This document shows positions 34,665 to 54,470 of a DNA stretch of 64,000 bases, piece after piece (the first letter of the stretch is position 1; each line of letters begins with the position of its first letter). Origin of the DNA: Chloroherpeton thalassium ATCC 35110 (GTDB lineage: Bacteria > Bacteroidota > Chlorobiia > Chlorobiales > Chloroherpetonaceae); the NCBI RefSeq assembly GCF_000020525.1, contig NC_011026.1:1284001-1348000 (forward strand), given 5' to 3'. The translations under genes were made by a program, and so were the position numbers. Under the pieces are notes generated by a model that did no database searches, was not told where the DNA came from, and saw only the letters and a program-made list of their open reading frames with translations.

Positions 34665-35468
34665 CTAAAGAAGTTTTTTGCTTTTCAAGATGTCTTCCAC
34701 GATTTCGCGAGCGACTTTTCCCGACGCATTCTCGCCTTGAATCATGCAAGTAAATGCGTAAGTTTTTCTCTCAACTTCAACATACCCGACAAACCAACCC
34801 AAATTGAATGCGCCTCTTGCTTGATTGAAGCCTGAACCTGTTTTTCCATAAAATGCGCCGCGTTCCGTCTTGCGAATCAGCATGATCTTTTTAAGCGCGG
34901 ATTGTGCTTTTTCAGAAAAGGGAAGCTGATTGGTGAGAAGCGCATGAATTAGTCGAACTTGCTCGAGCGGTGAAATTAAAATGGTTTTGCTGCCTTGTCT
35001 CGGAAGCCAAAACACGTCGATGCCGGCGGAAATGTCGCCATCACCGTAATGTATTTTGTTGAGCCAAGTTTGCATGTGCTTCTCGCCGATTTTCCGAGCC
35101 AGCGCTTGAAATGCCGGCACGCAAGAAACCTGAAATGCCTCTTTTAGCGTCAAATCTTTGTTCCAATCTGCAATGAAGCGTTTTTCCCCGTCCCATTTGT
35201 AAAAAGGCTCGTTCGGTGAGGAAATCAACCCAAGCTGAAGTCCGATAAGCGTATTCCAAATCTTGAAAGTTGAACAGGGCGCAAGCTTTTCCGCTGATGC
35301 GGCAGGGTTGAAATCGTTGATTTGCCCTGACTCGCAGTCCATCAAAATGAGCGTGCCTTTTCGGCCATCCAGCGCATGTTGAACAAGACTGTCTGGAACA
35401 GGAAAAACTTGTCCGAACGCAGCCGTTGCGAGCATAAGCAAAAGTGAGAGAAAGCAAGCGTGTTTCAT
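34665..35468 (-). CDS. class D (OXA-type) beta-lactamase
   Basis: 267 residues with a signal peptide (CFLSLLLMLATAAFG). Class D active-site motifs are in order: S66-T-F-K69 in PCSTFKI, S115-C-V in FQVSCVPAF, and K209-T-G in FYGKTGSGF, followed by W225 in LGWFVGYVE. HYGDGDISAGIDVFWL corresponds to the usual YGN region but has Asp (D143) in place of Asn. The enzyme should act in the periplasm on beta-lactams, or on another acyl-serine substrate. No mobile element lies next to it, so it looks like a resident chromosomal gene. A regulator is not visible. Confidence 0.9.
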   Translation of the reverse strand: MKHACFLSLLLMLATAAFGQVFPVPDSLVQHALDGRKGTLILMDCESGQINDFNPAASAEKLAPCSTFKIWNTLIGLQLGLISSPNEPFYKWDGEKRFIADWNKDLTLKEAFQVSCVPAFQALARKIGEKHMQTWLNKIHYGDGDISAGIDVFWLPRQGSKTILISPLEQVRLIHALLTNQLPFSEKAQSALKKIMLIRKTERGAFYGKTGSGFNQARGAFNLGWFVGYVEVERKTYAFTCMIQGENASGKVAREIVEDILKSKKLL

Positions 35469-35813: not shown

Positions 35814-37784
35814 ATGAGCGAAAAAAGCAGTAAGCCTAAGGGAGGCCGATTGACGAAAAACGGACAGCCTCCAAAATCTCCGATGATTCACAAAGACCAC
35901 TTTGAGGCGCAGGTTCACCCGGACTGGTGGCGCCATATTTTTACATCTCTCTATTTGAAAACCGATGGCGATGTGGTAAATGATCCAGGCATTACCGGCA
36001 AAGAGGTCTCGCTCATTTTGGATACACTCAAAGTGCAACCCGACGCGCACGTCTTAGATCTTTGCTGCGGTCAAGGCCGCCATTCGCTCGAGATCGCGCG
36101 GCGCGGCTTCAAAAATATCGATGGGCTGGATCGTTCACATTACTTGATTCAGCGTGCCAAATCGCAGGGCAAAAAAGAGGCGCTTCCCGTCCGATTCAAG
36201 GAAGGCGATGCAAGAAAATTGCCGTATCCGTCCGATTCATTTGATGTGGTTACCATTTTGGGCAACAGTTTCGGCTATTTCGAGAGCGTGCAAGACGACA
36301 TGCGCGTGCTGAAGGAAGTCGCGCGGGTGCTGAAACCTTGGGGAAAATTGCTCATCGATGTCACCGACGGCGATTATTTGCGCGAGCATTTCGAGCCGCG
36401 CTCGTGGGAATGGATGGATGAAAAGCATTTTGTTTGCCGCGAGCGTTCGCTTTCGCTCGATGGGCAACGGCTCATTTCGCGCGAACTGATCAATCACACG
36501 CAAAAAGGCCTTATCGCCGATCATTTTTATGCCGAACGGCTTTATTCCAAAGAAAGCCTCACGAACCTCTTGAAGCACGCCGGCTTTTCCGATACGATGT
36601 TTCATGCGGAGGTCTCGCCGGAATCGCAGCGCAATCAGGATTTGGGCATGATGCAGCGCCGCTTCATTTTGACCACAACCATTAAAAAACAGTGGGCTGC
36701 TCAAAAAAAGAAGAAAGAACAGACGAAAGAAGTGGTGGTGATCATGGGCGACCCCTCGAAGCCCGACGCGCTCAAGCCGCTTTGTATTTTTGACGACGAC
36801 GATTTTTACACCATCGACCAGCTAAAAAACGCCTTGCGGCAGATTGATCGCTATAAGATCACCTATTTGAACAATCACAACACGCTCATCCACGATTTGG
36901 CCAGAATAAAGCCAAAAGTGGATTTTGTGTTTAACCTTTGCGACGAGGGTTTCAACAACGACCCGCGCAAGGAGTTGCACATTCCGTCGCTGCTTGAAAT
37001 CATGGGCTTTCGCTACACGGGTTCCGGGCCGCAGTGCTTGGCGTATTGCTACGACAAGTCGCTTGTGCGCGGCATTGCCAAAGAGATGGGCATCGCCGTG
37101 CCGGAAGCCTTTTTTATTAGGCCGGAGGAAACTTCGTTTGAACTGCCGTTCAACTTTCCCGTGATTGCCAAGCCGAACTTCGGCGATTCCAGCTTTGGCA
37201 TCACCACGCGCAGCGTTTCTTACACGATCGAGGAACTCGTGAATGCCATTTCGGAAATTCGCAGCAAAATCGGTTATGAAAAGCCGATTTTGGTTGAGGA
37301 ATTTCTCACTGGAAAGGATTTGAGCTTGGGCATTATCGGCAACGCGCCGGAATCTTACATGGTGCTGCCGATTATTGAGGAGGATTATTCCGGCCTGCCG
37401 GAGTCGCTGCCGAAAATTTGCGGCTACGAGGCCAAATGGCTGCCCGACTCGCCTTACGCGACCGTGAAATCTATTCCGGCGCAAATTTCGGAGGAAACCA
37501 AGAAGCTGCTGGAAGAATGGTGCGTGATGCTCTTCGAGCGCTTAGAATGCCGCGATTATTGCCGATTTGATTGGCGACTCGACGCAAACGGCAATCCGAA
37601 ATTGCTTGAGGTGAATCCGAACCCGGGCTGGTGCTGGGATGGACATTTGGCGAAAATGTCGGCGTTCTCGGAAATAGATTATCCGAAAATGATAGAAACC
37701 ATTTTAGCTGAAGCCGAAAAACGCTTTTCGCGCGAAACAGAAATGGTGGTGGAAAAACCGCTTGCGCCAGCAGGGGTTTCATAA
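35814..37784 (+). CDS. SAM methyltransferase fused to a D-Ala-D-Ala ligase-like ATP-grasp domain
   Basis: 656 residues in one frame. Residues about 35-290 are a class I methyltransferase: motif I VLDLCCGQGRHSLEIA (80-95), DGLDRSHYLIQRAK, EGDARKLPYPSDSFDVV and VARVLKPWGKLLIDV. A Lys-rich linker at about 287-303 leads to an ATP-grasp half related to D-alanine-D-alanine ligase: LCDEGFNNDPRKELHIPSLL, GFRYTGSGPQC, NFPVIAKPNFGDSSFGI, KPILVEEFLTGKDLSLGII and the metal site DWRLDANGNPKLLEVNPNPG. Both halves appear intact. ATP-grasp enzymes of this type join an amino acid or peptide carboxylate to an amine; the methyltransferase may act on the same product. Neither substrate can be inferred. It stands alone, with a terminator after it. 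Confidence 0.9.
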   Translation: MSEKSSKPKGGRLTKNGQPPKSPMIHKDHFEAQVHPDWWRHIFTSLYLKTDGDVVNDPGITGKEVSLILDTLKVQPDAHVLDLCCGQGRHSLEIARRGFKNIDGLDRSHYLIQRAKSQGKKEALPVRFKEGDARKLPYPSDSFDVVTILGNSFGYFESVQDDMRVLKEVARVLKPWGKLLIDVTDGDYLREHFEPRSWEWMDEKHFVCRERSLSLDGQRLISRELINHTQKGLIADHFYAERLYSKESLTNLLKHAGFSDTMFHAEVSPESQRNQDLGMMQRRFILTTTIKKQWAAQKKKKEQTKEVVVIMGDPSKPDALKPLCIFDDDDFYTIDQLKNALRQIDRYKITYLNNHNTLIHDLARIKPKVDFVFNLCDEGFNNDPRKELHIPSLLEIMGFRYTGSGPQCLAYCYDKSLVRGIAKEMGIAVPEAFFIRPEETSFELPFNFPVIAKPNFGDSSFGITTRSVSYTIEELVNAISEIRSKIGYEKPILVEEFLTGKDLSLGIIGNAPESYMVLPIIEEDYSGLPESLPKICGYEAKWLPDSPYATVKSIPAQISEETKKLLEEWCVMLFERLECRDYCRFDWRLDANGNPKLLEVNPNPGWCWDGHLAKMSAFSEIDYPKMIETILAEAEKRFSRETEMVVEKPLAPAGVS

Positions 37785-52784: not shown

Positions 52785-54470
52785 CTAAAGTGGAACAATG
52801 AGATGCTTATCGAAGGCTTTGGTTAACAGCAACTCTTTGAGCAGCTTAATCAGGGTGGTGTCGAACTTATTGAAAAAATGAAACCCATTGAGAACGCGCT
52901 CTTGCAAAACGCCGCCTGGCAACAAGTTATCGCGGCTTTTTTCAATTTGGGCGATGAGATCGTTGTGTCGTTGTTTTTCTGCCTTGATGGTTTTCGACTT
53001 CAAGTTTTCGACTTGATTGAGCGTACTTTGCATCACCTTTTCAACACTTTGCGCCAAAGTCGGATCTATTTCCGAAAGTTTTAGCCCAAACTTTTTGAAA
53101 ATGTCGCTCAGTCCTTGAATGGCGGTTGTGGCTTCGTCTTCAATATCCACAGTGGACGCCGCAAGCAAAAGCTCGTTAATAAACTGCTGCGAATTTTGAT
53201 AAAATCGCGATAAGCTGCCTGAAATTTCCTTTTCGTTTAGAATCCGTGCCGACTTTTCAAAAACGCGCGAAATTTTAGGCTCTAACAACGATAAACTGGC
53301 TCGCGGATAAATGATGGGCATCGGAATATTGAAAAACTGATAGTTCCGCAAAAACTGTCCGAAATAAGAGATTTCACCTGGTCCTGCTACATAGGCAACC
53401 GTCGGCAATACGGTGTCTTGCACAATCGGGCGTAAAACGACATTTGGGCTGAAAAGCTCCGGCGCGGAGTGCGCAAATTCGAGCATTTCGTGTTGGCTAA
53501 AAGTTGTTTTGCCTGGCAAAAGCTCTACCGAACCTTGCCGGCGCGGCTCGATTTTCAAGCGCTGATTTTCTTGAAAAAAGTACAAATTAATCGGCCTGGG
53601 TTTTGCCTGCGCGTCGTAGCCACTTTCTTCGAGTCGCGCGCTTTGTGCAATAATGTTTTGCGAGCTTGCCGGAAATGTTTCCAATTCGCGAATAAAAACG
53701 GACTTTGCCAGCGTTTTGAACCCTTTTGGATGACTGGAAACAATGATCAGCCCTTCGTCATAAAACAGTCGAGCCAAAAGCGTTGCGAACGCCATTTCGT
53801 AAGAAACGCCTTCTTTATAGCTTTCACGAACGAGCGTGAGCATTTTTTGCTTGTAGTCCGATTCGGGAAACGCTTCCAAAATTTCCTTGCCAAGCCAATC
53901 CAAAAACTCAGGCGTGATTTGCGTTGCACCCGCGCTACTCAGCGCTTGGTAGGAAGCTTCTGAATAGGAAAACCGCTCGAGCGAATTTCCCTTTAGCAAA
54001 GAAACATGCGAAATTTCCTCATAATCGTGATCTTCAGACTCGAGCCAAAAAACAGGGACGAACTCAAAATCGGGATAGTGCTCATGCCATTTTTCAGTCA
54101 GCACAATCGCCGAAAGCGTTTTATAAATGGTGTAGACGGGACCTGTCAAAAAGCCAACTTGCTGACCCGTGACAACCGCCAGCGTTTTTTTGGAAAGCAG
54201 CGATTGAATGCGCTCAAATGTTTTCGGGCCCGAGCCAAACAATTGGTTTTGCCGCGTTAGCTCCAAGACAAGTTCCGGGCGCTGATACGTTCGCCCGCTA
54301 ACCGTTTGTATTTGGGCAGAAAGGTGCGCCGGATTGCGATAATCGTGCTGGTAAAATTGCGAGATTAGCGCATCCGTGGCAAGTGTATTGGAAGTGTAAT
54401 CAAGAAATAATTGCGAAAACTGTTTCCCGCCTTCGCTGATGCTGTGGAATGGAATTGAGTAGCTTTGCAA
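52785..54470 (-). CDS. bshC: putative cysteine ligase BshC (bacillithiol biosynthesis)
   Basis: 561 residues. BshC adds cysteine to glucosaminyl-malate to form bacillithiol, the low-molecular-weight thiol used by Firmicutes and by Bacteroidota/Chlorobiota relatives. VVTGQQVGFLTGPVYTIYKT, VPVFWLESEDHDYEEI and PTVAYVAGPGEISYFGQF are the family signatures, and a coiled-coil region sits at about residues 455-520. bshA and bshB are not in the window. It lies 12 bases after surE on the same strand and is likely co-transcribed. Confidence 0.93.
   Translation of the reverse strand: MQSYSIPFHSISEGGKQFSQLFLDYTSNTLATDALISQFYQHDYRNPAHLSAQIQTVSGRTYQRPELVLELTRQNQLFGSGPKTFERIQSLLSKKTLAVVTGQQVGFLTGPVYTIYKTLSAIVLTEKWHEHYPDFEFVPVFWLESEDHDYEEISHVSLLKGNSLERFSYSEASYQALSSAGATQITPEFLDWLGKEILEAFPESDYKQKMLTLVRESYKEGVSYEMAFATLLARLFYDEGLIIVSSHPKGFKTLAKSVFIRELETFPASSQNIIAQSARLEESGYDAQAKPRPINLYFFQENQRLKIEPRRQGSVELLPGKTTFSQHEMLEFAHSAPELFSPNVVLRPIVQDTVLPTVAYVAGPGEISYFGQFLRNYQFFNIPMPIIYPRASLSLLEPKISRVFEKSARILNEKEISGSLSRFYQNSQQFINELLLAASTVDIEDEATTAIQGLSDIFKKFGLKLSEIDPTLAQSVEKVMQSTLNQVENLKSKTIKAEKQRHNDLIAQIEKSRDNLLPGGVLQERVLNGFHFFNKFDTTLIKLLKELLLTKAFDKHLIVPL

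Follow-up and report, generated by a model that had tools for sequence, protein, structure and literature searches.

A candidate bifunctional synthase in Chloroherpeton thalassium: a methyltransferase fused to a D-Ala-D-Ala-ligase-like ATP-grasp enzyme, conserved across bacteria and archaea

Chloroherpeton thalassium encodes a 656-residue protein that joins a complete class I SAM-dependent methyltransferase to a complete D-Ala-D-Ala-ligase-like ATP-grasp module, and the same fusion is found in very distant bacteria and archaea. The best reading of this protein, put forward tentatively from its sequence, is that of a self-contained bifunctional synthase that would produce an N-methylated dipeptide-like amide. 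The parts are of known kinds; what is new is that they are combined, that the combination is extremely conserved and that it reaches so far.

Layout of the gene and conservation of both active sites

The genome is a single contig of 3,293,456 bases, and the stretch of DNA analysed (the window; 64,000 nucleotides, whose numbering is used below) covers its positions 1,284,001–1,348,000. The gene occupies positions 35814–37784 of the forward strand, starts with ATG and is composed of a methyltransferase half (approximately residues 30–290; 35901–36683, + strand), a variable linker (residues 291–304; 36684–36725, +) and a ligase half (approximately residues 305–640; 36726–37733, +). Pfam models match both halves above their curated cut-offs: Methyltransf_25 covers residues 80–177 (E 3.4e-21) and, together with Methyltransf_11, residues 80–181, and Dala_Dala_lig_C (PF07478) covers residues 444–631 (E 4.5e-23), while none of the NCBIfam models among the matches listed spans the fusion as a whole chain. 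The AlphaFold2 model (mean pLDDT 83) contains two well-formed folds, whose best structural matches in Foldseek were Ddl/VanA (3r5x, E 1.2e-20) and a SAM methyltransferase (E 2.7e-17). Structure prediction had been suggested as a way to define the interface; it gave confident folds but not a confident packing of the halves, whose relative placement is uncertain (pTM 0.55), with a low-confidence linker (pLDDT below 50 at residues 296–302). Read-through by chance, a frameshift or an assembly artefact do not account for the joined domains, because 76 homologues share the two-domain layout with the window protein end to end.

Alignment of these 77 full-length fused proteins (the window protein and 76 homologues) allowed the conservation of both sites to be followed. 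In the methyltransferase half, SAM motif I (LDLCCGQGRH, residues 81–90; 36054–36083, +) has invariant D82, C85, G86, G88 and R89, and D82, G86, G88, D106 and the GNSFGYF segment of the SAM site are invariant or nearly so. A family-specific cap segment (RSWEW...FVCRERSLS, residues 196–214; 36399–36455, +), which aligns with the cap segment of the N-methyl-bacillithiol synthase NmbA, contains invariant S197, W198, E199, W200, R209, E210 and R211. In the ligase half, the ATP/substrate loop GDSSFGI (residues 457–463; 37182–37202, +) aligns with GSSVGI of the Ddl encoded elsewhere in the same genome and has invariant G457, D458, S460, G462 and I463; the Ddl-type omega-loop ICGYEAKW (residues 535–542; 37416–37439, +), with W in place of Y, aligns with FYDYDAKY of that Ddl and has invariant C536, Y538, E539, A540, K541 and W542. 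The Mg/ATP and acceptor-site motif LLEVNPNPGWCWDGH (residues 597–611; 37602–37646, +), which starts with LLEVNPNPG (residues 597–605) and whose acceptor part is unlike that of Ddl/VanA, has invariant E599, N601 to G605, W606, C607, D609, G610 and H611, W608 being nearly so. Further invariants of this half are G312-D, D329-D, residues within NLCDEG, K453-P, E495, EDYS and R584-D-R588. K453, E495, K541, R584, D586, E599 and N601, all invariant (n=77), occupy the ATP, Mg and catalytic positions when aligned with VanA and the local Ddl.

Among the pairs for which dN/dS could be estimated, values ranged from 0.03 to 0.32 in the methyltransferase half and from 0.03 to 0.19 in the ligase half (mostly 0.03–0.15), far below 1 throughout and alike in both halves within each pair. 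This similarity between halves points to selection on both activities and, taken with the conserved motifs, makes it very probable that both active sites are complete and that both are used. A sequence-only reading of this DNA had described the 656-residue frame with intact LDLCCGQGRH and LLEVNPNPG motifs and had predicted ligation and methylation on one chain. The frame and the motifs are confirmed by the ORF list, Pfam and the alignment, in which no loss of catalytic residues was seen among the 77 sequences; the pairing of activities is supported by the two conserved sites, a common target molecule being a further step that we infer.

Distribution and genomic neighbourhood of the fusion

A scan of 84,980 GTDB species genomes identified 434 stretches that encode relatives, and the best 80 were retrieved; the 76 that were aligned, spread over more than 20 phyla of bacteria and archaea, are all fused over their full length and are 62–70% identical to the window protein. 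According to the record titles, bacterial carriers include Planctomycetota, Atribacterota, Aminicenantes, Spirochaetota, Zixibacteria, Thermodesulfobacterium, Caldithrix, Chloroflexota and Tectomicrobia, and archaeal carriers include Methanoculleus (cultured isolates), Methanophagales, Altiarchaeota and Jordarchaeia. The gene is also present in isolate genomes (L086, L094 and L101) and in assembled chromosomes (L038 and L070). The sequence-only reading knew of no named enzyme with this architecture, and none turned up here: the homologue search for a characterised one came out negative, and neither NCBIfam nor the PDB nor about 5.4 million open-access papers yielded a description. The main text of a survey of archaeal fusions does not mention it (PMC11237513).

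By contrast, none of the 60 relatives searched gave a full-length match to the fusion, and NPNPGWCWDGH, used as an exact back-translated pattern, was present in only 3 of 296 genomes of its phylum, host included. Since its closest relatives lack the fusion, the host probably gained it by horizontal acquisition. For the family as a whole, the phylum label had to change 30 times on a quick tree of the fusion proteins, in which 23 phyla are represented (the minimum possible is 22 and the mean after shuffling 41.6); switches between bacteria and archaea numbered 5. Repeated horizontal transfer is the simplest reading of this distribution, to whose patchiness loss and mis-binning add some share. 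Contamination may affect some of the bins: the L050 and L053 proteins are nearly identical, yet their bins are labelled Methanophagales and Nitrosotalea, which suggests that one contig was mis-binned. Two full-length copies occur in one Freyarchaeota-labelled bin (L068, genome G301, contigs C32 and C12), either by duplication or because the bin is mixed. No full-length match to the fusion was found on plasmids, phages or viruses.

The neighbourhood of the gene was compared in about 78 loci with flanks of up to 8 kb, calling ORFs of at least 70 aa and naming the neighbours by reading their sequences. Comparing proteins with both domains, and the genes around them, had been proposed as a check; it revealed the fused family but no recurrent partner or shared operon in these loci. 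Neighbours vary by lineage and include Mg transporters, an aldo/keto reductase, a radical-SAM protein and peptidases, among others; recurrence is confined to close relatives, with CorA-like and aldo/keto-reductase-like genes repeated in Atribacteria and an MgtE-like gene in two related bins. In two unrelated groups (L062, L067 and L069; L037 and L061), a gene for a Mg2+ transporter (CorA-like or MgtE-like) lies directly upstream of the fusion, an adjacency that is probably due to chance. In the window, the gene is flanked by a class D beta-lactamase-like gene on the opposite strand and by a DUF486 transporter-like gene. The product of the former (34665–35468, − strand) reaches 222 bits, below the class D cut-off of 250, in a host presumed to be a marine phototroph. 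No riboswitch or other regulatory RNA was found upstream of the fusion in the window or in nine loci, and the upstream DNA is conserved only among close relatives. Because the gene moves alone and stays conserved while its neighbours do not, the enzyme probably acts alone on common metabolites.

Relatives of the two halves

The ligase half keeps the fold, the ATP and Mg residues and the omega-loop YEAK of the Ddl/VanA enzymes (DdlB, VanA; PF07478), but it differs from Ddl in a motif of the N-terminal lobe (GDPxKxDxLKP...FDDDDFYT) and in having NLCDEG where Ddl has the HG loop, and from both Ddl and VanA in its acceptor loop, WCWDGH. G610 and H611 of this loop, both invariant in the 77 sequences, align with S316 and R317 of VanA, which we take to be the residues that bind the acceptor carboxylate; on this alignment, those residues are not kept in the ligase half. 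Outside the family, the ligase half is nearest, among the proteins found, to free-standing FN-x-x-EG ATP-grasp proteins of Chlorobiota genomes (about 31–39% identity), which have the FN(L/I)-x-EG and YEAKW motifs in common with the fusion but no methyltransferase and a different C-terminal acceptor loop. In four Chlorobiota loci (L104, L105, L108 and L110) the FN-x-x-EG gene has a constant place near rsmB-like and small BON-like genes, and a second divergent copy (L109 and L111) lies at another location. A comparable logic is known from Ngg-type GNAT-ATP-grasp fusions (N-acetylglutaminylglutamine synthetase), in which a single chain both couples two amino acids and modifies the product's amine; these proteins carry an acetyltransferase where the present fusion has a methyltransferase.

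The methyltransferase half has NmbA (9RI2) as its best sequence match in the PDB (phmmer E 2.8e-25, residues 27–261), the next methyltransferase being about twelve orders weaker (E 1.3e-13), and by this best match it belongs to the same class I subfamily, cap-forming segment included. Profile comparison also favoured NmbA (E 3.6e-28), with the glycine sarcosine N-methyltransferases 5h02 and 5gwx among the other matches (E approximately 1.5e-11). NmbA adds a methyl group to the cysteine nitrogen of bacillithiol, which corresponds to the alpha-amine of an aminoacyl amide (PMC12719100; PMC6282198). It works as a separate protein of 266 aa with bacillithiol as its substrate, whereas the methyltransferase half described here is fused to a ligase and, unlike NmbA, is found mostly in hosts that make no bacillithiol by the BshC test. 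The host genome contains, in addition, a separate NmbA-like protein of 266 aa at about 2.90 Mb (hhalign against the methyltransferase half, E 3e-22).

Predicted activity and alternatives

According to the proposed scheme, the Ddl-like half would use ATP to convert the carboxylate of an amino acid (or a similar acid) into an acyl phosphate, which would then be joined to an amine other than D-Ala or D-Lac, giving a dipeptide-like amide; the carboxylate of this partner, if it has one, would be gripped differently from that of D-Ala. The NmbA-like half would then transfer at least one methyl group from SAM, most likely onto the alpha-amine of the acyl part, by analogy with NmbA, which does so on the cysteinyl amide of bacillithiol, and with CypM, which methylates a peptide N-terminus. 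Both substrates would be ordinary metabolites, since no partner gene travels with the fusion, and the cell would use the product, a small N-methylated amide, internally, for instance as a compatible solute or protective metabolite. The scheme in this specific form, which falls somewhat short of an even chance, goes beyond the alignments in the order of the reactions, the methylated atom (be it N, O or a carboxylate), the substrates and the use of the product, all of which are inferred. It is also possible that the chain carries out two independent reactions, an arrangement with which the undefined interface of the model (pTM 0.55) is compatible.

The alternative that survives best, although it is unlikely, keeps the same two activities but reverses their order or changes their target: a free amino acid would be methylated first, or a betaine made, and the ligase would couple it afterwards. 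Glycine/sarcosine N-methyltransferases make a betaine, and the matches to 5h02 and 5gwx agree with this order, but NmbA, which acts on a ready-made amide, is matched far better. Moreover, Ddl-type sites hold the first amino group through a proton, and a fully methylated amine has none to offer. Slightly less likely is a masking role for the methyltransferase, in which a carboxylate converted to its methyl ester would leave only the intended acid open to the ligase. Such protecting-group logic is documented beside an ATP-grasp ligase in the assembly of cystargolide, where CysG carries out a cryptic carboxyl methylation (PMC11427300), and the loss of the Ddl/VanA acceptor-carboxylate residues would fit a carboxylate that is absent or masked; against it, NmbA, the nearest characterised methyltransferase, is N-directed (PMC12719100). 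In addition, no esterase that could remove the mask accompanies the fusion gene in the approximately 78 loci.

A peptide- or protein-modifying role, in which a graspetide-like or other RiPP maturase would ligate and methylate a ribosomal peptide, is very unlikely: RiPP pathways do contain both ATP-grasp ligases and methyltransferases, but neither a recurrent small precursor ORF nor any other recurrent neighbour was found in the same loci (ORFs of at least 70 aa), and every library and structure match pointed to a small-substrate Ddl-type ATP-grasp. Ligation of the mycosporine type (MysC/MysD) was set aside for the absence of recurrent partner genes.

The two remaining alternatives are the least likely. 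The fold and the best family matches of the ligase half, which are to Ddl/VanA, could suggest a second, divergent cell-wall D-Ala-D-Ala (or D-Ala-X) ligase with an appended methyltransferase, but this candidate was rejected: the best Ddl model of NCBIfam reaches 116 bits (E 1e-33) against a cut-off of 243, Dala_Dala_lig_N (PF01820) has no Pfam match in the fusion protein, the only PF01820 match of the host genome is a separate normal Ddl, and PF01820 is absent from 9 of 9 archaeal hosts checked (it is present in 9 of 10 bacterial hosts). The ligase half is thus no cell-wall Ddl, because its own genome already has one and archaea carry the fusion without PF01820, in agreement with the earlier view that ordinary peptidoglycan synthesis was unlikely. 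A bacillithiol-linked enzyme, in which an NmbA paralogue is joined to a ligase that makes a bacillithiol derivative, could be suspected from the NmbA-like half and from the BshC (the bacillithiol cysteine-adding enzyme) encoded in the same genome and window (52785–54470, − strand, with both Pfam domains), but BshC (PF10079) is absent from 15 of 16 other fusion-host genomes, which rules out bacillithiol as a general substrate, and the host already has its separate NmbA-like protein.

On the most far-reaching view, one horizontally mobile gene would let very distant bacteria and archaea make a single undescribed N-methylated aminoacyl amide, a proposal that we regard as roughly a one-in-three prospect. 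In organisms free of bacillithiol, the product might even serve as a new low-molecular-weight thiol or as a protective solute, analogous to N-methyl-bacillithiol. Enzymes conserved to this degree (62–70% identity across Chlorobiota, Planctomycetota, Atribacterota, methanogens and Jordarchaeia) usually have a specific and valuable product, and a single gene seems to be the whole pathway here, so that the product would be directly discoverable by expressing one protein. A new shared metabolite, if one is found, would supply a missing piece of the chemistry of many subsurface lineages that are still uncultured.
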